From NCBI GenBank assembly GCA_017407225.1, contig JAFQWY010000344.1, forward strand, positions 1-35,549: DNA of 35,549 bases. The letters are read 5' to 3'. The notes under the pieces are model-generated. The model saw only the letters and a list, made by a program, of their open reading frames with translations. It had not been told where the DNA came from and did not search any database. Of this stretch, positions 16,950-35,549 are shown in pieces (positions within the stretch are counted from its first letter, which is position 1; every line of letters starts with the position of its first letter). A program made the translations under genes and the position numbers. This DNA comes from Clostridia bacterium (GTDB lineage: Bacteria; Bacillota; Clostridia; Oscillospirales; CAG-272).

Positions 16950-18113
16950 ATGAACAAGGGCAGAATCATATTTCTCAACGGTCTGACCAGCTGCGGAAAA
17001 ACTTCCGTTGCGGAACAGATGAAAACGCTGTGCGGCGATGTGCTGTATGTGGTTTCCAACGATATTTTCCACGGAATGGTGGACTGGAAATTCTTTACCG
17101 CCGACTACTGGAAAATGGTCGCTCACACCATCACCGCCCAGTACTACGCGGCGCATGGCATGGCTGAGGCCGGGTTCAGCGTGGTCATCGACGGTATGCT
17201 GCTGGATCTGCCCGAGTACCGGGAGCAGTTCGGCAAATCCAACGCAGAGCTGGTACGGGAGATCTTTGCCGGGCTGGATGTGACTTTTGTGGACTTCCGC
17301 TGTCCTCCGGAAGAGCTGCGCAGACGGAATCTTGCCCGTGGAAACCGAGGGGAATTCCAGTCGGATGAGCAGGCGCGGCTGATGACAAAGGAGTTTGAGT
17401 ATGATCTGACCATCGACGTGATGAAAACCATGCCCGACGAATCGGCGGTGAAGATTCTGGAGTTCTGCGGACTGCCGTGGGCTTATACAAAGAAGATCAA
17501 CTGCTCCGTTGCCGCATCCCGCAGAAAAATGCTGTCTTCCCTCTTCGGCAGCCGTGGAAAAATCACTGTGCTGACTGACGAGAAACACTCCGTCGACGGG
17601 TATCCCGTGGAGCTGTCCGTCTCCCCGGCCGATCCCGGGGACGATATTGCTGCCGAGCTGATCCGCCGGGAGTACATCGAATCTGCGCGGTCCGATCGGG
17701 TCATCACGCTTGTACGGGGCAGACGGGAGCGCGTCCGTATTCTTTTGCAGTCCGACGGGGATCTGCTGTATACTTTATCACAGCTTGGCCGAACTGTGAC
17801 CGTCACCGTCGACCGCCCTGCAGGCAGTGTACATCCGGATCATCCCGACATGGTGTATCCGGTGAATTACGGTTATGTCAGCGGAATCTCTTCCGGGGAC
17901 GATGAGTGGATGGATGCATATATTCTCGGCGTATGCGAACCTTTATCCGAATTCACAGGCACGGTTTCTGCCGTAATCCATCGATTCGACGACTGCGACG
18001 ACAAGCTGATCGTGACTCCGGCAGGTGCTTCTTTTTCATCCGCCGAGATCGCGGAGACTGTGAATTTCTGTGAAAAATACTTTGATTCCGCAGTGATTTG
18101 TCCCGCAGATTAA
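16950..18113 (+). CDS. Fusion: chloramphenicol-phosphotransferase-like kinase, unknown domain, small PPase-like domain
   Basis: 387 residues with GGGAG 6 nt before the ATG. Residues 1-180 resemble the CPT-like P-loop kinases: Walker A GLTSCGKT (11-18), SNDIFHGMVDWKFF, VVIDGMLLDLPEYREQF, VDFRCPPEELRRRNLARGNR, and the conserved YDLTIDV. Residues 185-280 (KITVLTDEKHSVDGYPVELS to LYTLSQLGR) are not recognised. Residues 283-387 match the short pyrophosphatase-like proteins of Firmicutes: VTVDRPAGSVHPDHPDMVYP, VNYGYVSG, DAYILGVCEPLSEFTG, VIHRFDDCDDKLIV. Such short domains lack part of the family I active site, so activity is uncertain. The substrate of the kinase is not known, and resistance to chloramphenicol should not be assumed. 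Neighbouring PPK2 suggests phosphate or polyphosphate metabolism. Confidence 0.82.
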   Translation: MNKGRIIFLNGLTSCGKTSVAEQMKTLCGDVLYVVSNDIFHGMVDWKFFTADYWKMVAHTITAQYYAAHGMAEAGFSVVIDGMLLDLPEYREQFGKSNAELVREIFAGLDVTFVDFRCPPEELRRRNLARGNRGEFQSDEQARLMTKEFEYDLTIDVMKTMPDESAVKILEFCGLPWAYTKKINCSVAASRRKMLSSLFGSRGKITVLTDEKHSVDGYPVELSVSPADPGDDIAAELIRREYIESARSDRVITLVRGRRERVRILLQSDGDLLYTLSQLGRTVTVTVDRPAGSVHPDHPDMVYPVNYGYVSGISSGDDEWMDAYILGVCEPLSEFTGTVSAVIHRFDDCDDKLIVTPAGASFSSAEIAETVNFCEKYFDSAVICPAD

Positions 18114-18192: not shown

Positions 18193-18221
18193 TTGACAAC
18201 CATCGCCGCTTGTGCTAAAAT
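18193..18221 (+). promoter_or_regulatory. Sigma-A promoter of the aromatic operon
   Basis: A consensus TTGACA (18193-18198), a 17-nt spacer ending in TGC (extended -10) and TAAAAT (18216-18221). Transcription should begin near 18228, just before the SD and leader peptide. Confidence 0.88.
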
Positions 18222-18251
18222 TACTCCATCATCATGGAAGGATCTTGAATC

Positions 18252-18305
18252 ATGAAAACATTCAACGCAGCATACGAATATTATTACTCTTACTTTACCC
18301 TGTAA
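18252..18305 (+). CDS. Tyr/Phe-rich leader peptide of the aromatic operon
   Basis: 17 residues, MKTFNAAYEYYYSYFTL, then TAA. GGAAGGAT lies about 9 nt upstream. Tyr is at positions 8, 10, 11, 12 and 14 and Phe at 4 and 15, seven aromatics in 17 residues, with no Trp. The gene sits between a strong promoter and an intrinsic terminator that precede aroF. This is the arrangement of ribosome-mediated attenuation, known for trp, pheA, his and others in enterobacteria. Slow translation at Tyr/Phe codons when charged tRNA is scarce should favour read-through into the operon. Confidence 0.88.
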   Translation: MKTFNAAYEYYYSYFTL

Positions 18306-18331
18306 AATGAAGTAAGAGTGTTTGTGCTGCG
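18266..18331 (+). promoter_or_regulatory. Attenuator 1:2 hairpin overlapping the leader peptide codons
   Basis: A long stem forms from CGCAGCA (18266-18272) with TGCTGCG (18325-18331), CGAA (18275-18278) with TTTG (18321-18324), and a perfect 10-bp helix ACTCTTACTT (18286-18295) with AAGTAAGAGT (18310-18319). The left arm lies in the Tyr codons, so a ribosome stalled there would melt it. The freed right arm can pair less strongly with the terminator interior: AGTGT (18317-18321) with ACACT (18377-18381) and CGATAC (18330-18335) with GTATTG (18371-18376). This pairing is the candidate antiterminator. Confidence 0.72.
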
Positions 18332-18355
18332 ATACAAGTTTTTATAGACATATAG

Positions 18356-18399
18356 AAGCGGATCACCACAGTATTGACACTGTCGGGGATCCGCTTTTT
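18356..18399 (+). terminator. Attenuator terminator before aroF
   Basis: AAGCGGATC (18356-18364) pairs with GATCCGCTT (18388-18396), 9 bp. An inner ACAGT (18368-18372) / ACTGT (18379-18383) extends the stem, and a run of five T closes it. It lies upstream of the first structural gene, so it can only act as a regulated or leaky terminator. Confidence 0.88.
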
Positions 18400-18461
18400 G
18401 ATTTCTTCCCCATCATTTCAAAAATATTATCTGCATATATATGCACAGAAAGAGGATTATC

Positions 18462-19469
18462 ATGATTGCTGTCATCAAGAACGGAACAACTCAGAAGCAG
18501 CTTGACAGTTTCTGCGAATGGCTCAAGTCCCAGGGCGTGGGCGTACATCTCTCCACCGGCGAATACCAGACTGTCATCGGTCTCATCGGCGATACTTCCA
18601 GAATTGATGAAGATATGCTCAACGGTCTTGAAATCGTGGAATCCGTCAAGCGAATTTCCGATCCCTTCAAGAGTGCCAACAGAAAATTCCATCCCGACGA
18701 CTCCGTAATCGACATATCCGGCACCACTACCGTCGGCGGCAGTATCTTCGGTGCCATCGCAGGTCCCTGCTCCATTGAATCCGAAGAACAGATCATCACC
18801 GTTGCCAAGGCTGTCAAGGCATCCGGTGCCACTATGCTTCGCGGCGGTGCATTCAAGCCCCGTACTTCCCCCTACGATTTCCAGGGGCTGCGCGCAGACG
18901 GGATCGAGCTTCTTCTGGAAGCCAAAAAGGAAACCGGTCTTCCCATCGTCACCGAAATCATGAACGCCAACCACCTGCCCCTGTTTGAAGATGTCGACGT
19001 AATTCAGGTAGGCGCGAGAAATATGCAGAACTTCGAACTGCTCAAGGAACTGGGCAAGACCCGAAAGCCCATTCTCCTCAAGAGAGGTCTGGCAAACACC
19101 CTGAAGGAACTGCTCATGTCCGCGGAATACATCATGGCGGGCGGCAACGAAAACGTCATCCTCTGCGAACGCGGTGTCCGTACCTTTGAAACCTACACCA
19201 GAAATACTCTGGATCTGTCCGCAGTCCCTATGCTCCACGAGCTCTCCCATCTGCCCGTCATCGTTGACCCCAGCCACGCAACCGGACTCTCCAGACTGGT
19301 AAAGCCCATGGCTCTCGCCGCTGCTGCCTGCGGTGCCGACGGTATCATGATCGAAGTTCACAACAATCCCAAGGCCGCTCTCTGCGACGGTCCCCAGTCC
19401 CTCACTCCCGAACAGTTCGACGATGTGATGAAGGCTGTAAACAAGGTTCTCACCGTTGTGAACGAATAA
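18462..19469 (+). CDS. aroF: 3-deoxy-7-phosphoheptulonate (DAHP) synthase
   Basis: 335 residues, first step of the shikimate pathway (PEP plus erythrose-4-P). The start MIAVIKNGTT is set by AGAGGA 5 nt upstream. Residues 1-75 form the ferredoxin-like/ACT-like regulatory domain seen in Thermotoga-type enzymes. The barrel follows with AGPCSIES, LRGGAFKPRTSPYDFQG, VGARNMQNFELLKELG, LLKRGLANT, and PVIVDPSHATG. Members with this N-terminal domain are usually inhibited by Tyr and Phe, which agrees with the leader peptide composition. It is first in an eight-function operon. The symbol refers to function; some annotations call this family aroA or aroG. Confidence 0.94.
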   Translation: MIAVIKNGTTQKQLDSFCEWLKSQGVGVHLSTGEYQTVIGLIGDTSRIDEDMLNGLEIVESVKRISDPFKSANRKFHPDDSVIDISGTTTVGGSIFGAIAGPCSIESEEQIITVAKAVKASGATMLRGGAFKPRTSPYDFQGLRADGIELLLEAKKETGLPIVTEIMNANHLPLFEDVDVIQVGARNMQNFELLKELGKTRKPILLKRGLANTLKELLMSAEYIMAGGNENVILCERGVRTFETYTRNTLDLSAVPMLHELSHLPVIVDPSHATGLSRLVKPMALAAAACGADGIMIEVHNNPKAALCDGPQSLTPEQFDDVMKAVNKVLTVVNE

Positions 19470-19508: not shown

Positions 19509-20354
19509 ATGGTAACAGGAATTGTAGGTCTGGGTCTCATCGGCGGATCCATGGCCAAAGCATACAAGAAAAGCAAACAGACCGTATACGGCGCGGATGC
19601 CAATGAAATCACGCTTGGTTACGCCATTCTCTCCGGCGCCGCGGACGAAAAGCTCACCGACGAAAACATCGGCGACTGCGATCTGATCCTGCTGGCAGTC
19701 AATCCGGATATCGCCTGTGCATGGCTCAGGGAAAACGCTCACAAAATCTCGCCCTCCACGATGGTCATCGACCTGTGCGGCACCAAGCGCATGATCTGTG
19801 AAGTCGGGTTTGCACTGGCGAAAGAACACGGCTTCACCTTCGTGGGCGGACATCCCATGGCGGGCTATCATCTCTCCGGCATCAAGAATTCCCGTGAGAA
19901 TCTGTTTGAAGGAGCGCCCATGGTCATCGTTCCCCCCGTATACGACGATATCACCCTGTTTGAAAAGATCGAGTGTCTGCTGGTTCCCGCAAAGTTCGGC
20001 AGATTCACCTTCACCACCGCCGAAGAGCACGACAAGGTCATCGCGTACACTTCCCAAATGGCGCACATCGTTTCCAATGCTTACGTGAAAAGCCCCTCTG
20101 CTCAGGAAAAGAATCACGTGGGCATCTCCGCCGGTTCCTACAAGGACCTGACCCGTGTTGCATGGCTCAGCGAAACCATGTGGACCGAGCTGTTCATGGA
20201 AAACCGCGAAAATCTGATTCAGGAAATCGACCAGCTTATCGGCTATCTCACTGAATACAAGGATGCTATGGTAAACGAAGACCGCGAGACCCTCTGTTCC
20301 CTTCTGAGAGACGGACGGCTCGCCAAGGAGAAGGCTGACGGTACACCCACATGA
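19509..20354 (+). CDS. tyrA: Prephenate dehydrogenase
   Basis: 281 residues, NAD(P)-dependent oxidative decarboxylation of prephenate to 4-hydroxyphenylpyruvate, the branch to tyrosine. The Rossmann start GIVGLGLIGGSMAKAYKK, then DLILLAVNPD, DLCGTKRMI, GGHPMAGYHLSGI and the active-site segment SQMAHIVSNAY are visible. No chorismate mutase or ACT domain is attached, so prephenate must come from a mutase coded elsewhere. GAGGT precedes the ATG. The gene lies 39 nt after aroF and overlaps aroB by 4 nt. Confidence 0.94.
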   Translation: MVTGIVGLGLIGGSMAKAYKKSKQTVYGADANEITLGYAILSGAADEKLTDENIGDCDLILLAVNPDIACAWLRENAHKISPSTMVIDLCGTKRMICEVGFALAKEHGFTFVGGHPMAGYHLSGIKNSRENLFEGAPMVIVPPVYDDITLFEKIECLLVPAKFGRFTFTTAEEHDKVIAYTSQMAHIVSNAYVKSPSAQEKNHVGISAGSYKDLTRVAWLSETMWTELFMENRENLIQEIDQLIGYLTEYKDAMVNEDRETLCSLLRDGRLAKEKADGTPT

Positions 20355-21400
20355 AACTGAACGCAGGAACTTACGAAATCATCATCGAATCCGGCTCCAT
20401 TGCAAAAACCGGTGAATATGCGGCATCCGCCGTGAAGCCCTGCCGGACTCTGGTGGTGTCCGACGACAATGTATACCCCCTCTACGGCAAAACCGTGGAA
20501 GAAAGTCTGACCGGTGCAGGTTTTGATGTAGCCGAATCCTATGTCTTCCCTCACGGCGAGGAGCAGAAGAATCTCACCACATTCTCCGCCATTCTGGAAC
20601 ACATGGCGGCACAGCATCTGACCCGTACCGATGTGGTGTTTGCTCTCGGCGGCGGCGTCACCGGCGACATGACCGGATTTGCGGCTGCCTGCTATCTCAG
20701 AGGCATCCGGTTTGTGCAGATCCCCACCTCCCTGCTTGCCATGGTGGACTCCTCCGTGGGCGGAAAAACGGCCGTGGATCTGTCCGCAGGCAAAAATCTG
20801 GTAGGTGCCTTCCACGAGCCTTCTCTGGTCATCTGCGACCCGGAGGTTCTCTCCACCCTTCCCGCCGATTTCTTCACTGACGGTATGGCGGAAGCCATCA
20901 AGATGGGAATGCTGGGCAACCGCGCCCTGTTCGACGGCATCCGGGACAAGGCACTCACTACCGCTCAGATTATTGAGATGTGCGTGACGGACAAGCGTGA
21001 CATCGTTGCCCGAGACTTCCGGGACAACGGCGAGAGACAGAAGCTGAATCTCGGTCACACCGTCGGTCATGCACTGGAAGTTCTCTCCGACTATACCATC
21101 CGCCACGGTCACGCAGTTGCCGCCGGGATGCACGTCATCACCAGGGCATCCGCCGCACGGGGACTCTGCTCCGAAGAACTGCTCCGGGCTCTGGATGCCG
21201 CACTTGTTGCCGCAGGACTGGATCCCATGCTCTGCTCCCGTCACTCTGTGGAAGACCTGCACCGCGGCACCCTCCACGACAAAAAACTGCGGGGCAATAC
21301 CATTTCGCTGGTCATTCCCCGTGAGATCGGCGTGTCCGAGCTGATGAAATTCACCACCGACGAGCTGACGGATATCATCCGTGCGGGGATTGAAGCATGA
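20351..21400 (+). CDS. aroB: 3-dehydroquinate synthase
   Basis: 349 residues. Converts DAHP to 3-dehydroquinate with NAD and a divalent metal. Signatures: VFPHGEEQKNL, FALGGGVTGDMTGFAAACYL, QIPTSLLAMVDSSVGGKTAVD, FTDGMAEAIKMG, NLGHTVGHALE and GHAVAAGM with metal-binding His residues. The ATG overlaps the tyrA stop (ATGA), and the gene overlaps aroA the same way, which points to coupled translation. Length is normal. Confidence 0.96.
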   Translation: MKLNAGTYEIIIESGSIAKTGEYAASAVKPCRTLVVSDDNVYPLYGKTVEESLTGAGFDVAESYVFPHGEEQKNLTTFSAILEHMAAQHLTRTDVVFALGGGVTGDMTGFAAACYLRGIRFVQIPTSLLAMVDSSVGGKTAVDLSAGKNLVGAFHEPSLVICDPEVLSTLPADFFTDGMAEAIKMGMLGNRALFDGIRDKALTTAQIIEMCVTDKRDIVARDFRDNGERQKLNLGHTVGHALEVLSDYTIRHGHAVAAGMHVITRASAARGLCSEELLRALDAALVAAGLDPMLCSRHSVEDLHRGTLHDKKLRGNTISLVIPREIGVSELMKFTTDELTDIIRAGIEA

Positions 21401-22644
21401 ACATCACACTCCATCATTCCTCTCCAAAAGGAACGGTTTCCGCTCCGCCGTCCAAATCCCATGCGCACCGGCTTCTGATCTGCGCGGCGCTGTCGGACAA
21501 GCCCTGCCGGATCCGCTGTGACAGAACCAACGACGACATTGACGCAACGGTGCGCTGTCTGACAGCACTGGGAGCTGAAATTACATACAAAGATGGTGTG
21601 TTCACCGTCAATCCCATCGCAAAAATCCCTTCTCACGCCGTTCTTGACTGCGGCGAATCCGGTTCCACCCTCCGCTTCATGCTTCCCGTGACGGCGGCGC
21701 TTGGTGCGGATGCACAGTTCGTCCTCCACGGCAGACTTCCCAACCGTCCCCTTTCTCCTCTGTATGAAATCATGGAAGAACACGGCGTGAAGATGTCTCC
21801 CCAGGGCTCCAATCCCTTCTGCATTTCCGGCAAGCTGACCGGAGGAGACTTCACCTTCGATGGCGGCGTGTCCTCACAGTTCACAACGGGACTTCTGCTT
21901 GCTCTCCCTCTGACAGGCGAAGAATCCCGCATCCGTCTCACCGGAAAAATAGAATCCCGTCCATATATTGATCTGACTCTTGCCACCATCCGCCAGTTCG
22001 GAGTACAGGCAGAAGATCTCAGCACGGAATTCGTCCTGCCCCGGTCCCGGTTCACCACCCCCGCCGGGGATGTATCCGTGGAAGGCGACTGGTCATCGGC
22101 GGCATTCATGCTGTGTCTGGGCGCTCTGTCCGAAGAAGGCATTACGGTCACCGATCTCAATCCCCATACCGCTCAGGGCGACTCCGCCATCGTGGACATT
22201 CTCGCCGCTTTCGGGGCTGACTGTACCCGCACGGGAGAAACCGTAACCGTAAAGAAAAACGCCCTTCACGCAATCACGCTGGATGCGGCGGAAATCCCGG
22301 ATCTGATTCCGGTAGTATCCGTAATCGCGGCAGCGGCGGAAGGAACCACCGTCATCGAAAACTGCGGACGGCTCCGTCTGAAGGAAAGCGACCGCATGGA
22401 GACCATCCGCGCCACCATCGCATCCATCGGCGGCGACTGCGTACTGGATGATGACCGTATTATTATAAATGGAAGAAAGACGCTCACCGGCGGCACCGTT
22501 TCCTCCTTCGGGGATCACCGGATTGCCATGTCGGCGGCAGTTGCTTCCTTCCTCTGCGAGAATCCCGTCACCATCGAAGGCGCGGAATGTTCGGCGAAAT
22601 CCTATCCCACATTCTTCAGCGAACTCGAAAAACTCTGTCGGTAA
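21397..22644 (+). CDS. aroA: 5-enolpyruvylshikimate-3-phosphate (EPSP) synthase
   Basis: 415 residues. Adds enolpyruvate from PEP to shikimate-3-phosphate. Signatures: PPSKSHAHRLLICAAL, CGESGSTLRFMLPVTAAL, the LHGRLPNRPLSPL loop, SSQFTTGLLLALPL, RLRLKESDRMETI and SFGDHRIAMSAAVA. The glyphosate-contact segment GESGSTLRF has Glu after Gly where class I enzymes usually have Asn-Ala-Gly, so it is of the class II-like kind. Sensitivity would have to be measured. The ATG overlaps the aroB stop. Confidence 0.95.
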   Translation: MNITLHHSSPKGTVSAPPSKSHAHRLLICAALSDKPCRIRCDRTNDDIDATVRCLTALGAEITYKDGVFTVNPIAKIPSHAVLDCGESGSTLRFMLPVTAALGADAQFVLHGRLPNRPLSPLYEIMEEHGVKMSPQGSNPFCISGKLTGGDFTFDGGVSSQFTTGLLLALPLTGEESRIRLTGKIESRPYIDLTLATIRQFGVQAEDLSTEFVLPRSRFTTPAGDVSVEGDWSSAAFMLCLGALSEEGITVTDLNPHTAQGDSAIVDILAAFGADCTRTGETVTVKKNALHAITLDAAEIPDLIPVVSVIAAAAEGTTVIENCGRLRLKESDRMETIRATIASIGGDCVLDDDRIIINGRKTLTGGTVSSFGDHRIAMSAAVASFLCENPVTIEGAECSAKSYPTFFSELEKLCR

Positions 22645-22655
22645 AGGAGGTTCCC

Positions 22656-23753
22656 ATGACAAGCTACGGAACCAATCTGAATATACAAATCTTCGGCGGC
22701 TCCCACGATGAGGAAATCGGCGTAATCTGCAAAGGTCTGCCGGCGGGAATTGCTGTAAATGAAGAAAAACTGCAGAAATTCATGGCACGCCGCGCCCCCG
22801 GTCAGAGCAAACTCACCACATCCCGGAAGGAGCCGGATATCCCGGTGTTCACATCCGGTCTGGATAACGGCATGACCACCGGAGACACCCTCCGCGCCGT
22901 GATCCGCAACACCAATCAGCGCTCCTCCGACTACAAAAAGCTGGCGTTCATTCCCCGTCCGTCCCACGCGGATTATCCCGCCATGGTGAAATCGGAAGGT
23001 CACGCGGATCTTCGCGGCGGCGGACATTTCTCCGGCAGACTGACCGCTCCCCTGTGCATCATCGGCGGCATACTGAAACAGGAGCTGGAACGCCGCGGTA
23101 TCTTCATCGGTGCGCACATCGCATCGGTCGGCAGTGTACAGGATGCACGTTTTGATCCCGTGAACCTGACAAAGGCAGATTTTGATGCCGTTCCGTCGGA
23201 TTTTCCCGTCATCGACACCGAAGCCGGAGAAAAAATGAAGGAAGTCATTGATGCCGCACGGATGGATCTTGACTCCGTGGGAGGTGTAGTGGAATTTGCC
23301 GCTGTGGGACTTCCCGCAGGCATCGGTGAGCACATATTCGGCGGCATGGAAGGCAGAATTTCTTCCATCGTCTTCGGCATTCCCGCTGTCAAGGGTATAG
23401 AATTCGGCGACGGATTTGCCTCCTCTGCTGCTCTCGGCTCCGAAAACAACGACCCCTACACTACCGACGGCAAGACCATTACCACCGTCACCAATCACTG
23501 CGGCGGCATTCTCGGCGGCATGACCATCGGGATGCCCCTGATCTGCCGTGCCGCAGTCAAGCCCACACCGTCCATCGGCAAGCCCCAGCAGAGCGTTGAC
23601 ATGGACAAAATGGAAAATACAACTCTGGAAATCGGCGGACGCCACGATCCCTGCATCGTTCAGCGCGCCGTACCCGTATTTGAAGCGGCGCTGGCAATTG
23701 CCGTCTACGATGCGCTGCTGGATTCCGAAAACTGGGAGGACATGGAAAGATGA
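22656..23753 (+). CDS. aroC: Chorismate synthase
   Basis: 365 residues from MTSYGTNLNI, start set by AAAGGAGG about 6 nt upstream, 11 nt after the aroA stop. Makes chorismate from EPSP using reduced FMN. Family motifs: the start IFGGSHDEEIGV (FGESHG in most relatives), RRAPGQSKLTTSRKEPD, the segment SHADYPAMVKSEGHADLRGG, GGHFSGRLTAPLC, EFGDGF, and GGRHDPCIVQRAVPV. The N-terminal GESHG appears as GGSHD, a departure worth checking, but the rest is standard. Confidence 0.95.
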   Translation: MTSYGTNLNIQIFGGSHDEEIGVICKGLPAGIAVNEEKLQKFMARRAPGQSKLTTSRKEPDIPVFTSGLDNGMTTGDTLRAVIRNTNQRSSDYKKLAFIPRPSHADYPAMVKSEGHADLRGGGHFSGRLTAPLCIIGGILKQELERRGIFIGAHIASVGSVQDARFDPVNLTKADFDAVPSDFPVIDTEAGEKMKEVIDAARMDLDSVGGVVEFAAVGLPAGIGEHIFGGMEGRISSIVFGIPAVKGIEFGDGFASSAALGSENNDPYTTDGKTITTVTNHCGGILGGMTIGMPLICRAAVKPTPSIGKPQQSVDMDKMENTTLEIGGRHDPCIVQRAVPVFEAALAIAVYDALLDSENWEDMER

Positions 23754-24982
23754 ACAAGAAACTGCGCTGCGGACTGATCGGCATGCCCCTCGGTCACAGC
23801 TATTCTCCCCAGATTCACGCGCTTCTCGCCGATTACGACTATACGCTGACCGAGCTGGAAGAGCAGGAAGTGGGCGAGTACCTGAAATCCGACCGCTACG
23901 ATGCCACCAACGTCACCATTCCCTACAAGAAAACCGTTATGCCCTTCCTTGACGAAATCTCTCCGGAAGCACAGCGGATCGGTTCCGTAAATACCATCAC
24001 CCATCTGCCGGACGGACGTCTCAGAGGGGACAACACCGACTACTACGGCTTCTCACACCTGCTTGACACTGCCGGGATTGACGTAAAGAACCGGATCGTG
24101 GTCATCATCGGCGGCGGCGGTGCCTCCATGACTGCCCGTACCGTCGCGGCCGACCGCGGTGCAAAGGAAGTGCGGATTCTGATCCACAGGGAAAATACGC
24201 CCGAAAATCTTCCGAAATTCGCCGATGCGGAAATTCTCATGAACACCTCCCCCGTGGGAATGTATCCGAAAAACGGCGAATCTCCTGTGCCCATGGATCT
24301 GTTCCCCAACCTGATCGGTGTGGTGGATATGGTGTACAATCCCTCGAAAACCGCGCTGATTCTGGATGCGGAGGAGAGAAAGATCCCCTGCATCTCCGGT
24401 CTCCCCATGCTGGTGGCTCAGGCAAAAATGGCGTCGGAGCTGTTCACCGGAACAAAAATCGACGACAGCGAAATCGATCGGGTAACCCGCATCGTGGAAC
24501 TGCAGATGAAAAATATCTCCCTCGTCGGTATGCCCGGATGCGGCAAGAGCACCATAGGACGTGTTCTTGCACAAAAACTGGGCCGTAAATTTGTGGATCT
24601 GGACGAAGTCATTACCGAAAAGGCAGGATGCCCCATTCCGCAGATCTTCGCCGAACAGGGAGAAGCCGCATTCCGTCAGCTGGAGCACGACTGTCTGGAA
24701 GAAATCTCCAAGCTTTCCGGTCTGGTCATCGCAACCGGCGGCGGTACCGTGATCCGGGAAGACAACCGCCGTCTCCTGAGACAGAACAGCGAAACCGTAT
24801 TCCTCAGACGGGATCTTTCCCTTCTGCCCAAGGACGGGCGTCCCGTATCTCAGGCAAACGATCTGGGCGAGCTGTTCAAAGAGCGGCTTCCCTTCTACCT
24901 TGATGCGGCAGATCACGAAATCACCGTGGAACCGGATCCCGAGCAGAACGCACAGAACATCACGGAGGTACTTGGCTTATGA
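23750..24982 (+). CDS. aroE-aroK: Bifunctional shikimate dehydrogenase / shikimate kinase
   Basis: 410 residues; two consecutive pathway enzymes in one chain. Residues 1-250 are shikimate dehydrogenase: GMPLGHSYSPQIHALL, NVTIPYKK with the catalytic Lys, GSVNTITHL, DNTDYYGF, the nucleotide loop IIGGGGASMTART, NTSPVGMYP, and GLPMLVAQA. Residues 255-410 are shikimate kinase: Walker A GMPGCGKS (260-267), VDLDEVI, EAAFRQLEHD, ATGGGTVIRE and a lid Arg in KDGRPVS. The join is short, with no internal SD. The ATG overlaps the aroC stop and the end overlaps aroQ, so four of the operon's junctions are ATGA. The fusion channels dehydroshikimate towards shikimate-3-phosphate. Confidence 0.94.
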   Translation: MNKKLRCGLIGMPLGHSYSPQIHALLADYDYTLTELEEQEVGEYLKSDRYDATNVTIPYKKTVMPFLDEISPEAQRIGSVNTITHLPDGRLRGDNTDYYGFSHLLDTAGIDVKNRIVVIIGGGGASMTARTVAADRGAKEVRILIHRENTPENLPKFADAEILMNTSPVGMYPKNGESPVPMDLFPNLIGVVDMVYNPSKTALILDAEERKIPCISGLPMLVAQAKMASELFTGTKIDDSEIDRVTRIVELQMKNISLVGMPGCGKSTIGRVLAQKLGRKFVDLDEVITEKAGCPIPQIFAEQGEAAFRQLEHDCLEEISKLSGLVIATGGGTVIREDNRRLLRQNSETVFLRRDLSLLPKDGRPVSQANDLGELFKERLPFYLDAADHEITVEPDPEQNAQNITEVLGL

Positions 24983-25416
24983 AATTTCTCATCATCAACG
25001 GGCCCAATCTGAATATGCTGGGCATCCGGGAGCCTTCCATCTACGGCAGACAGGATTTCGCGGCTCTGCTGAAGCTCTGCGGCGACACCTGCGATGAGGC
25101 CGGCATCGAATATGAAACCTTCCAGTCCAATCACGAAGGCGATATCGTGGACAAAATCCAGCAGGCGTACGGTGTGTTCGACGGAATCGTCATCAATCCC
25201 GCAGCTTACACCCACACCAGTGTTGCCATTCTGGATGCGCTGAAGGCTGTGGGAATCCCCACCGCTGAGGTGCACATCTCGGATATCAACACCCGCGAGG
25301 AGTTCCGGAAGTTTTCCTATGTGTCCCTTGCCGCAAAATTCACCATTGCCGGTCACGGTCTGGACGGCTACCGGGAAGCCATTCTCCGTCTGAAAGATCT
25401 GATTGAAGCCAACTGA
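24979..25416 (+). CDS. aroQ: 3-dehydroquinate dehydratase, type II
   Basis: 145 residues. Dehydrates 3-dehydroquinate to 3-dehydroshikimate. Type II dodecameric enzyme features: INGPNLNMLGIREPSIYG with the catalytic Tyr, FQSNHEGDIVDKIQQA, INPAAYTHTSVAILDAL, and VHISDINTREEFRKFSY with the loop to GHGLDGY. Overlaps the previous stop by 4 nt and is the last gene before the terminator at 25425. The operon thus covers all seven steps to chorismate. Confidence 0.96.
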   Translation: MKFLIINGPNLNMLGIREPSIYGRQDFAALLKLCGDTCDEAGIEYETFQSNHEGDIVDKIQQAYGVFDGIVINPAAYTHTSVAILDALKAVGIPTAEVHISDINTREEFRKFSYVSLAAKFTIAGHGLDGYREAILRLKDLIEAN

Positions 25417-25424
25417 ACAAAAAA

Positions 25425-25465
25425 GCTCCTGCCGGATTTTCATCTCCGACGGGAGCAATTTTTTA
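25425..25465 (+). terminator. Intrinsic terminator of the aromatic operon
   Basis: GCTCCTGCCGGA (25425-25436) pairs with TCCGACGGGAGC (25445-25456), 12 positions with one mismatch, then six T. On the minus strand it ends in TTTTTT as well, so it is likely bidirectional for the converging acetyltransferase gene, whose stop codon is at 25463-25465. Confidence 0.88.
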
Positions 25466-26122
25466 TTCTTCTTCCTGTTCCCAGATTCTGTCTCCGGCTT
25501 CGATTCTTCTGTCGTGCCAGTAGAATTCCCGGTCCCGTTCGCCGATTTCACGGATCACACGGCAGGGATTTCCGTAGGCCACCACATTTGCGGGGATGTC
25601 TTTTGTCACAATGGATCCGGCCCCGATCACGGAGTTGTCGCCGATAGTGATGCCGGGACAGATGACGGCTCCTGCACCGATCCACACGTTGTTTCCTATG
25701 TGTACGGGGAGATTGTACTGGTACACACGCTTGCGGAGGCTGGGTTCAATGGGATGACCGGCCGTGGACACAATAACATTGGGTGCAAACATCACGCTGT
25801 CTCCCACGTAAATATGGGTGTCGTCCACCAGCGTCAGACCGAAGTTGGCATACACATTTTTCCCGAAATGGACGTTGTGTCCGCCCCAGTTTGCATGGAG
25901 CGGCGGCTCGATGTAACATCCTTCCCCGATTTCCGCAAACATCCTCTTCAGAAGCTCCGTACGTTTCTTTCCTTCCGATGGACGGGTCATGTTGTAGTCG
26001 TACTGCAGTTCCAGACAGGCAGCCTGCTCCGCTGCCAGATTTTCGTTGTCACAGGTAAAAAGCAGTCCGCTGTGTGTCTTGCGGTACACTTCCTCCAGTT
26101 CAAGGCGTTCCTGTTCCGTCAT
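25463..26122 (-). CDS. Sugar O-acetyltransferase (maltose/galactoside acetyltransferase family)
   Basis: 219 residues from [18 protein letters not shown] about 7 nt upstream supports this start over a longer frame. Transfers acetyl from acetyl-CoA to a sugar hydroxyl. The N-terminal helical Mac domain ([14 protein letters not shown] onward) is followed by a left-handed beta-helix of hexapeptide repeats ([67 protein letters not shown]) and the His of STAGHPI. The closing motif [12 protein letters not shown] is typical. The C-terminus is slightly longer than Maa or LacA. The acceptor sugar is unknown. Confidence 0.92.
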
Positions 26123-26364
26123 ATATTCTTCCTTCTTTCCGTAGTTGTGTATTCCAAGTATACTCCATCCGCCGGGAAAATGCAATAGACTTCCCGATTT
26201 TCCGGGATTTCTTCCGTTATCCCGTTTCTTAACAGAATAAAAAATTTACAAATCAGCGACAATATACATTTTCACCAAAAAACAGCCGGAATTTTATCTG
26301 TCTGCAGCACCTTCAAAAACGAACTTGTTCACAATTTATTATATATTTCCGGGAAAATCCGTGG

Positions 26365-33984: not shown

Positions 33985-34238
33985 TGTACAAATGCGATGA
34001 CGGGAAACCAGTAGCGTATTCAATCCTTCTGCAGAGAAATGACGGTCGGTGCAAGTCATGAAGACGGATGCGTGAATACATTCTCCGAGCAGCACACCGA
34101 ACCATCTACAGTAGGCTGTGACGTCTGACGGGCGTTATTCCGTCGGGGTATCCGCTATGCGCGTACCTGTGAGGTCATTCCCGTGAGGGTCTGACAAACC
34201 GAGGTGGTACCACGGAATTTCCGTCCTCTGCTTTTTTT
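33985..34238 (+). promoter_or_regulatory. T-box riboswitch, specifier UAC (Tyr)
   Basis: Stem I carries the AGTA specifier-loop motif (34010-34013) and the helix GCGTATTC (34014-34021) / GGATGCGT (34066-34073). A distal ATGAC (34039-34043) / GTCAT (34055-34059) hairpin has the GGTCGGTGCAA loop. After that helix come GAA and then TAC (34077-34079) followed by A, the position that holds GGC in B. subtilis glyQS. The T-box core GAGGTGGTACCACGG (34201-34215) includes TGGT, which pairs with an ACCA tRNA end, so discriminator A, as in bacterial tRNA-Tyr. The terminator ACGGA/TCCGT with GAGG/CCTC ends in seven T (34232-34238). Uncharged tRNA-Tyr should open the gene downstream. Confidence 0.88.
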
Positions 34239-34288: not shown

Positions 34289-35549
34289 ATGGTTATTACC
34301 GATTTTCTCGAACGAAATGCCCGTCTTCATCCCGATGACGTGGCTCTGGTGGAGATCAACCCCGCCAACCAGCCCAATCCCAATACCACATGGCGCGAAT
34401 TTTCCCTGATTGAATCCACTCCCGGCGGCAAGTACCGTCGTGAAATGACCTGGCGCGATTTTGACGTAAAGGCCAACCGCTTTGCCAATCTGCTGATGAC
34501 CCGCGGTGTCAAGAAGGGTGACAAGGTTGCCATCCTTCTGATGAACTGTCTGGAATGGCTGCCCATCTACTTCGGTGTACTGAAAACCGGCGCGCTGGCG
34601 GTTCCCATGAACTACCGTTACTCCGCTGACGAAATCAAATACTGCTCCGAGCTGGCGGATGTCTCCGTTCTTGTCTTCGGTCCCGAATTCACCGAACGTG
34701 TGGAATCCGTATTCATGGAACTGCCCATGCTGAAGAACCGCTTCTTCGTCGGCAAGGACGTTCCCGCATTCGCTGACAGCTACGATGAAATGGTAACCTA
34801 CTGCTCCTCCATGGCTCCCGCTGTGGAATACGATGAAAACGATGACGCTGCCATCTACTTCTCTTCCGGTACCACCGGCTTCCCCAAGGCAATTCTTCAC
34901 CGTCATGCCGCACTGGTATCTTCCTGCCAGACCGAACAGAATCACCACGGTCAGACAAGGGACGACGTGTTCCTCTGCATTCCTCCGCTGTATCATACCG
35001 GCGCAAAGATGCACTGGTTCGGCAGCCTTCTCTCCTGCAGCCGTGCGGTCATCCTCAAGGGCGTATCCCCCGAATGGATCCTCCGCGCCGTATCCGAAGA
35101 ACGTGCCACCATCGTATGGCTTCTGGTTCCGTGGGCGCAGGATATCCTGGATGCCATCGACCGCGGCGACGTGGATCTGGCGGACTACCGTCTGTCCCAG
35201 TGGAGACTGATGCACATCGGTGCACAGCCCGTTCCCCCGTCCCTCATCAAGCGCTGGAAAGCCGTATTCCCGGATCACGACTATGACACCAACTACGGTC
35301 TGTCCGAATCCATCGGTCCCGGCTGTGTTCATCTTGGCGTTGAAAACATCCACAAGGTCGGTGCAATCGGTGTTCCCGGCCATCTGTGGGAAGCTGAAAT
35401 TGTCAACCCTGACGGTGATCCCGTGGAAGGGGAAGAAGTGGGCGAACTGATCGTCAAGGGCCCCGGTGTCATGAAGTGCTACTATAAGAACGAAAAAGCT
35501 ACCGACGAAATTCTCAAGAACGGCTGGCTCTATACCGGCGACATGGCAA
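34289..35549 (+). CDS. ANL-superfamily acid-CoA ligase, N-terminal part (cut by window end)
   Basis: About 420 codons from MVITDFLERN, AGAAAGGAT about 9 nt upstream. Acyl- or aryl-CoA synthetases activate a carboxylic acid with ATP to an acyl-AMP and then a thioester. Core motifs: MTWRDFDVKANRFANLL, the P-loop YFSSGTTGFPKAILHRH (A3), PPLYHTGAKMHW, NYGLSES (A5) and GWLYTGDMA (A7 start, where the window ends). The small C-terminal domain with the catalytic Lys is outside. The substrate is not readable from the sequence. The Tyr T-box upstream points to an acid related to tyrosine, for example 4-hydroxyphenylacetate, but a fatty acid ligase is also possible. Confidence 0.88.
   Translation, partial: MVITDFLERNARLHPDDVALVEINPANQPNPNTTWREFSLIESTPGGKYRREMTWRDFDVKANRFANLLMTRGVKKGDKVAILLMNCLEWLPIYFGVLKTGALAVPMNYRYSADEIKYCSELADVSVLVFGPEFTERVESVFMELPMLKNRFFVGKDVPAFADSYDEMVTYCSSMAPAVEYDENDDAAIYFSSGTTGFPKAILHRHAALVSSCQTEQNHHGQTRDDVFLCIPPLYHTGAKMHWFGSLLSCSRAVILKGVSPEWILRAVSEERATIVWLLVPWAQDILDAIDRGDVDLADYRLSQWRLMHIGAQPVPPSLIKRWKAVFPDHDYDTNYGLSESIGPGCVHLGVENIHKVGAIGVPGHLWEAEIVNPDGDPVEGEEVGELIVKGPGVMKCYYKNEKATDEILKNGWLYTGDMA

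Follow-up and report, generated by a model that had tools for sequence, protein, structure and literature searches.

A tyrosine- and phenylalanine-rich leader peptide as a probable transcription attenuator of the shikimate operon in Clostridia

What controls transcription of the shikimate and tyrosine operon that starts with aroF in the Clostridia bacterium of assembly GCA_017407225.1 (Oscillospirales, CAG-272)? We analyzed positions 1 to 35,549 of its contig JAFQWY010000344.1, and refer to this whole stretch of 35,549 nucleotides (nt) as the window. Upstream of aroF lies a short leader with many tyrosine (Tyr) and phenylalanine (Phe) codons, which is in all likelihood a ribosome-mediated transcription attenuator of the trp/pheA type, sensing charged tRNA-Tyr and probably also tRNA-Phe. 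An initial annotation of this DNA had proposed an attenuator of this kind, and the proposal is supported, at the level of sequence, by the relatives of the locus, by a test of reading frames, by the exchange of pairing partners between leaders and by folding under a simulated ribosome. The analysis itself establishes the sequence parts of the element, their conservation, the agreement of frames, the co-varying alternative pairings and the folding logic.

The leader is composed of the following parts, with positions in the window (ORF, open reading frame; bp, base pairs).

18193..18221, + strand: promoter, composed of TTGACA, a 17-nt spacer and TG-TAAAAT; matches 11 of 12 consensus positions, with a TG-extended -10
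18236..18242, + strand: leader ribosome-binding site GGAAGGA, with AAGGA at 18238-18242, 9 nt 5' of the ATG (read directly)
18252..18305, + strand: leader peptide ORF MKTFNAAYEYYYSYFTL, 17 codons with 5 Tyr and 2 Phe (by translation)
18266..18274, + strand: segment 1 (CGCAGCATA), running from the Ala-Ala codons (GCAGCA) into the first Tyr codon; its partner is segment 2
18266-18274 with 18323-18331, + strand: lower helix of the 1:2 hairpin, 9 bp (fold)
18285..18320, + strand: upper helix of the 1:2 hairpin, 13 bp, 18285-18297 with 18308-18320 (fold)
18318..18331, + strand: segment 2 (GTGTTTGTGCTGCG), with segment 1 or segment 3 as alternative partners
18369..18380, + strand: segment 3 (CAGTATTGACAC), the upper 5' part and loop of the terminator and the antiterminator partner of segment 2
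18355..18404, + strand: intrinsic terminator, hairpin 18355-18397 (-23.4 kcal/mol) followed by the T-rich tail TTGATTT

The two helices of the 1:2 hairpin enclose a 10/2 internal loop and total 22 bp in the fold, and the 5' side of the hairpin is formed by the Ala-Ala and Tyr codons of the leader ORF. The promoter, the short Tyr/Phe ORF, the hairpin over the Tyr codons and the terminator before aroF, all named in the initial annotation, are confirmed by sequence and fold; the length of the hairpin, given there as 21 bp, is corrected. The leader region also ends where it had been placed, as we set the aroF start at 18462 (MIAVIKNG), the start at 18441 in the ORF list being mechanical. A scan of 900 bases returned 3 promoter-like sites compared with 1.5 (standard deviation 1.3) in shuffles, so only the quality of the site at 18193-18221 is unusual. 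The terminator was not among the matches of a simple first scan and was found by a later scan and by folding. Overall, the leader RNA folds at -56.5 kcal/mol, compared with a shuffle mean of -33.6 (z score -5.8; none of 200 shuffles equals it).

Is the same arrangement found before aroF in relatives? We scored a leader wherever an ORF of 7-45 codons within 330 nt upstream held at least 5 Tyr/Phe within 8 residues. The first set comprised 87 aroF relatives, 7 from a search of the window's genus (window included) and 80 from GTDB genomes, the latter picked by similarity to the query aroF; two aroF fragments at contig ends (L008, L009) had been removed beforehand. A Tyr/Phe-rich leader ORF precedes aroF in 67 of the 87, and 56 pass with an ATG and a ribosome site. 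Within the genus, 9 of 25 genomes match this aroF and 7 have a usable gene, 6 with the leader, the seventh being L005. The other 16 genomes have no match to this aroF, four of them being at least 90% complete, which suggests loss of the gene or the use of another 3-deoxy-D-arabino-heptulosonate 7-phosphate (DAHP) synthase.

Two broader draws took genomes evenly over the order and over the phylum, with the places read leaning to close relatives of this aroF. For the order, 69 places were read (29 best matches returned as loci and 40 down the list), second copies and the weakest places being mostly left out and L001 not counted. The leader is present in 50 of the 69, mostly better aroF matches, and this share leans to close relatives because the better matches were read. 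For the phylum, 69 places were chosen likewise, and 68 remained after removal of L200, which has no gene anchor; the leader occurs in 14, two of which (L182, L184) have no ribosome site. The samples overlap, with some species in two sets and L183 being the same place as L168. By chance, the rule is passed by 9 of 1513 random 330-nt windows taken from these loci, and by none of 1512 in a second draw with the added demand for an ATG and a ribosome site; for mononucleotide-shuffled upstream regions the corresponding counts are 26 and 3 of 1720. Close relatives of this aroF often have the leader, whereas more distant ones in the phylum seldom do. Six order-level loci scored as negative (L156, L158, L163, L165, L167, L168) look like looser aromatic leaders, in which the Tyr/Phe codons are spaced too widely for the 5-in-8 rule; four also have tryptophan (Trp), and none of the six was counted.

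Is the leader translated? We located each Tyr/Phe cluster without using a start codon, and then checked the nearest upstream ATG with a ribosome site. Among 146 clusters, 117 are in frame, 5 are out of frame and 24 have no usable ATG, which makes 117 of 122 where an ATG exists (set 1, order and phylum: 58, 47 and 12 in frame; 0, 2 and 3 out; 12, 5 and 7 with none). Synonymous codons are mixed in the 94 distinct leaders defined below (189 TAC and 163 TAT, 407 TTT and 83 TTC). Frame agreement and mixed synonymous codons are what a translated leader would predict, and the short ORF, rich in codons of the amino acid that the operon makes, is probably translated.

These frames also bear on another explanation, in which the leader is a tRNA- or metabolite-binding riboswitch, either a T-box or an unknown aptamer, and the ORF is fortuitous. 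T-boxes, which read uncharged tRNA directly and without translation, are plentiful in the window's genome (92% complete, 5.7% contamination): it has 15 T-box matches, 3 over the cut-off, preceding valS, trpB, thrS, ileS, serS, pheS and others, as judged by eye from the downstream ORFs. They also precede aroF in two relatives from the window's order; these two and one tRNA are the matches among the 19 order-level loci without the leader. The T-boxes concerned are the following.

33988-34231, + strand, window: T-box, 106.7 bits, before an AMP-binding enzyme gene (PF00501) that starts at 34289 and runs off the contig
L170 140-391 and L171 123-373, strand entered as -: T-box before aroF (Rfam match)

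In the T-box of the window, the codon after GAA in the alignment reads UAC (Tyr), so that a Tyr leader peptide and a T-box for Tyr may occur together in this window. At the leader itself, a T-box (RF00230) or other riboswitch was tried and ruled out, with no match in Rfam 15; every family stays below its gathering score, the best being preQ1-II with 20.5 bits for a gathering score of 47. The same search of the leader loci of 20 relatives returned no leader family and only a tRNA in one locus, and no T-box at gathering score replaces the leader in the 20 loci of set 1 that lack it. Moreover, the Tyr/Phe codons keep their frame with the ATG and the ribosome site while the RNA sequence varies widely. 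Weighing both sides, we find a riboswitch with a fortuitous ORF scarcely credible. Short ORFs with GWYRG or GWYHG in L209, L217 and L225 may be T-box sequence read in frame.

An attenuator further needs two mutually exclusive pairings, and both co-vary among the relatives. From 119 leaders with a ribosome site we removed 10 that had no acceptable terminator in the scan and 15 near-duplicates, which left 94. For each, we compared the duplex energy of its own segments with that obtained from the segments of all other leaders, in 20,000 permutations. Own partners pair better both for 1:2 (z -17.7) and for 2:3 (z -16.2), and no permutation is as good in either case. An earlier run on 54 leaders gave a z of -9.9 for 2:3, and for 26 of these leaders no more than 5% of 100 shuffled versions of segment 2 pair as well. 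A GCAGC-like segment 1 before the aromatic codons, a UUUUGCUGC-like segment 2 and a GCAGUG-like segment 3 in the terminator recur in many leaders, not in all; GCNGC is found in region 1 of 32 of the 94, as against 2% of shuffles. Elsewhere, segments 1/2/3 vary jointly, as CAGC/GCTG/CGGC in L065 and L069, GGCGAA/TTTGCC/GGTGAA in L007, GCACAAA/TTTGTGC/GCACGAA in L075 and CATACTT/GAGTATG/CATACTC in L139. The comparison that the initial annotation had recommended, for Tyr/Phe codons and covarying stems in related Clostridia, is therefore positive by the leader rule, by the frames and by the exchange of partners.

The leader could also be translated and act on aroF translation or mRNA stability, or through its peptide in trans, instead of through termination. 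Action in trans is described for the leader peptide peTrpL (PMC7298713), and the 10 of 119 leaders without an acceptable terminator would fit such a mode. It is nevertheless a quite improbable one, given that a strong terminator stands between leader and gene in the window, that one is found for each of the 94 distinct leaders, and that the 5' half of the terminator contains, by choice of region, segment 3, the co-varying partner of segment 2.

Would a stalled ribosome switch the pairing as attenuation requires? We masked the leader with a ribosome footprint on transcripts that stop at 18380 or 18384 and lack the 3' arm of the terminator. With Tyr 8, 10, 11 or 12 of the window leader in the A site, pairing 1:2 is 0.00 and pairing 2:3 is 0.76-0.91; with the ribosome absent or at the stop codon, 1:2 reaches 0.93-0.96 and 2:3 is 0.00. 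In silico, stalling at cognate codons frees segment 2, with Tyr 14 and Phe 15 as exceptions. Over the 94 leaders, stalling at aromatic codons lifts the expected extent of 2:3 pairing from 7.7 to 12.1 pairs, with an increase of more than one pair in 78 and a decrease in 2 (73-78 rise with three other footprints). With the ribosome at the stop codon, the mean falls to 4.7 over the 94, and the window is unchanged at 8.3. The rise is larger with the leader's own segment 3 than with that of another leader (mean 4.5 and 3.1 pairs, respectively, P-value 0.002).

Attenuation would then proceed as follows. RNA polymerase would start near 18228 and make the leader, and a ribosome would translate the 17-codon peptide. 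With ample charged tRNA-Tyr (and tRNA-Phe), the ribosome would run through and leave, segment 1 would pair with segment 2, and segment 3 would be free to form the terminator, stopping transcription before aroF. With scarce charged tRNA-Tyr, the ribosome would stall with Tyr 8, 10, 11 or 12 in the A site and cover segment 1, so that 2:3 would form, the terminator would be preempted, and the shikimate and tyrosine operon would be transcribed. What we infer from these parts is that the promoter is used, that the peptide is translated, that the ribosome stalls, and in which direction the cell regulates the operon.

The operon placed under this control is the following run of genes.

18462..19469, + strand: aroF, DAHP synthase of the Bacillus subtilis type; NF006421 and TIGR01361 over cut-off (run from 18441), PF00793, PF18152
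19509..20354, + strand: tyrA, prephenate dehydrogenase; PF02153 and PF20463 over cut-off, NCBIfam matches below cut-off
20351..21400, + strand: aroB, 3-dehydroquinate synthase; TIGR01357 over cut-off
21397..22644, + strand: aroA, 5-enolpyruvylshikimate-3-phosphate (EPSP) synthase; TIGR01356 over cut-off
22587..23753, + strand: aroC, chorismate synthase; TIGR00033 over cut-off; mechanical start, family match from residue 32-33
23750..24982, + strand: aroE-aroK fusion, shikimate dehydrogenase and shikimate kinase; two separate family regions, below curated cut-offs
24979..25416, + strand: aroQ, type II 3-dehydroquinate dehydratase; TIGR01088 over cut-off

The genes aroF-tyrA-aroB-aroA-aroC-aroEK-aroQ form one run on the + strand that reaches 25416, in which neighboring genes overlap or are separated by no more than 40 nt, and cover the seven shikimate steps and prephenate dehydrogenase. 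They make the amino acid whose codons fill the leader. A further ORF at 25403-26188 (+ strand, 261 codons), which overlaps the end of aroQ and has no NCBIfam or Pfam match, is a possible last gene of the operon. Directly 5' of the promoter, a gene at 16950-18113 (+ strand) has an N-terminal chloramphenicol phosphotransferase-like / AAA kinase domain (PF07931); its score of 40.5 bits with the NCBIfam resistance-enzyme model is far below the cut-off of 250.

Which of the two amino acids does the leader sense? The element could mainly sense Phe, with the Tyr codons as passengers, in the manner reported for aroR of Corynebacterium glutamicum. There, aroF transcription is reported to rise on Phe limitation and Tyr availability to have no effect, although the leader reads Phe-Tyr-Phe (PMC11802643). 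Across the 94 leaders Phe codons exceed Tyr codons (490 and 352, respectively), and in the window a stall with Phe 4 in the A site also opens the hairpin (2:3 of 0.64-0.71). Against this, 5 of the 7 aromatic codons in the window are Tyr, as are 4 of the 5 aromatic codons whose stall opens the hairpin, and the operon carries tyrA, not pheA. The prephenate dehydratase gene (pheA) has two good matches and one weak one elsewhere in the genome; no aromatic leader is found in the 300 nt upstream of the copy L243, and the second copy, L244, starts at a contig end. A mainly Phe-sensing element is hence unlikely. With TIGR00564 or PF04715, trpE was not found in the window's genome; as pheA is present, the operon plausibly serves mainly to make Tyr and Phe, in agreement with a leader that has no Trp codons.

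Several results weigh against ribosome-mediated attenuation sensed at Tyr and Phe codons, or limit what supports it. The rule fails in 20 of the 87 loci of set 1 (two of them, L005 and L014, cut by contig ends), in 19 of the 69 upstream regions of the order and in 54 of the 68 of the phylum, the gene start being poorly placed in several distant phylum loci. As already said, 10 of 119 leaders have no acceptable terminator. The control pairing 1:3, which is not expected to form, also beats most permutations (z -3.4, 11 of 20,000), a value that gauges the effect of shared composition and kinship alone. We dropped as evidence the number of leaders in which the two pairings share segment-2 bases, as it does not separate own segments (85 of 94) from swapped ones (73-80 of 94). 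In the masked folding, 1:2 opens wherever the ribosome stalls between codons 4 and 13, on aromatic codons or not, and the other codons of this stretch give a 2:3 of 0.11-0.91; what matters is therefore that the stretch includes Phe 4 and all but one of the five Tyr codons. Tyr 14 and Phe 15 are situated too far 3', and stalls there leave the hairpin closed. A swapped segment 3 still gives a rise of more than one pair in 60 of the 94 leaders, so a share of the effect is to be expected whenever segment 1 is masked. Finally, at equilibrium the terminator is present in the full-length RNA whatever the simulated state (stem 0.99-1.00), and the switch hence depends on timing during transcription, as textbook attenuators do.

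Does the codon content of the leader follow the amino acids that the host makes? We compared Trp codons in the leader with trpE in 68 genomes, taking trpE as present with a match at E of at most 0.001, even below the family cut-off (G122, G060, G325, G237 and, among looser leaders, G142). Eight of 76 genomes were left out: six with looser leaders, either with a Trp codon and no trpE (G128, G109), with a Trp codon and trpE (G086, G047), with trpE and no Trp codon (G142) or with neither (G037); one with no leader seen and no trpE (G102); and G230, whose leader without a Trp codon fails the rule and whose trpE matches are only fragments. Both Trp codon and trpE occur in 10 of the 68, only the Trp codon in 2, only trpE in 14 and neither in 42, so that trpE is present in 10 of 12 genomes with a Trp-containing leader and in 14 of 56 without a Trp codon (P-value 0.0003, Fisher test). 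By genus, the counts are 4, 1, 9 and 24 (4 of 5 and 9 of 33, P-value 0.04), and with the six looser leaders 12, 4, 15 and 43 (12 of 16 and 15 of 58, P-value 0.0007). The Trp-codon leaders with trpE are L159, L164, L174, L185, L188, L189, L190, L196, L197 and L199; L004 and L179 have a Trp codon and no trpE. Since related genomes are not independent in these statistics, the association is only a lead. We see a serious, if somewhat doubtful, possibility that the shikimate operon in these Clostridia is controlled by a family of Tyr/Phe leader-peptide attenuators that spans the clade and is so far undescribed, and that the codon content of these leaders records, as it evolves, the aromatic amino acids still made by the host, with Trp codons tracking trpE. 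The genome G230 belongs to the same family as those of L185-L190, and its leader is L187.

How does the leader compare with known systems? It is like the enterobacterial trp, pheA and his leaders in its segments 1:2, 2:3 and 3:4 and in having the cognate codons at segment 1, and unlike them in codons, genes and lineage and in having no Rfam match at the window leader (trp is RF00513). The closer counterpart is aroR before aroF in C. glutamicum, whose aroF is of another DAHP synthase type, so that the Clostridia and C. glutamicum leaders probably arose separately. By its published description, aroR is a Phe-Tyr-Phe leader with attenuation on Phe limitation (Neshat et al. 2014; PMC11802643, PMC4046766). 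Both leaders stand directly before a DAHP synthase operon, and ribosome stalling at aroR is reported to raise transcription; compared by description, the actinobacterial leader differs in its Phe-Tyr-Phe motif and its response to Phe and not Tyr, whereas here the Tyr/Phe clusters are longer. The uORFC-13-1 motif, an upstream ORF (uORF) with a Phe codon plus a terminator before aroF, was likewise predicted by comparative sequence analysis and is reported from Acholeplasma and environmental sequences only (PMC8632094); its 24 sequences are described with at least 1 Phe codon from a U run, unlike the Tyr/Phe clusters here.

In other Firmicutes, a His leader at hisS/hisZ of bacilli is, to the knowledge of its authors, the first outside Proteobacteria and Actinobacteria (PMC2965389), and Staphylococcus aureus ilv is described with a leucine-responsive attenuator that has a Leu-rich peptide (PMC5794164). 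As described, these leaders are also sensed by the ribosome in Gram-positives where T-boxes are common, and they differ in amino acids, genes and classes. In the Bacillus cereus group a T-box is reported before the tyrosine operon, in a source whose main text does not use the word aroF (PMC2494555). The T-box (RF00230) likewise tunes amino acid genes and stands before aroF in L170 and L171; it differs in its direct reading of uncharged tRNA, and it is not found at this leader. The suggestion of the initial annotation that the leader looks new consequently holds in part. The device is known from C. glutamicum aroR, from the predicted uORF before Acholeplasma aroF and from the His and Leu leaders of Firmicutes; no report of a Tyr/Phe leader of aroF in Clostridia was found in the open-access literature, subscription journals lying mostly outside the search. 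What is added here is a Clostridial leader family, frequent in close relatives, whose codons are rich in Tyr and whose alternative pairings co-vary, together with a possible link between Trp codons and trpE.

These results indicate that a group of Clostridia, many of them seen in metagenomes of animal guts, regularly uses classical ribosome-sensed attenuation to control the shikimate pathway at its entry and along its trunk, where control of other types had been expected. In the window's organism, this leader attenuation would sit in a genome that otherwise uses T-boxes. Leader-bearing relatives include named strains, namely Sporobacter termitidis (L026), Angelakisella massiliensis (L052) and Emergencia sp. 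(L023), and in uncultured bacteria the leader would provide a marker of Tyr/Phe control that can be read from the sequence.

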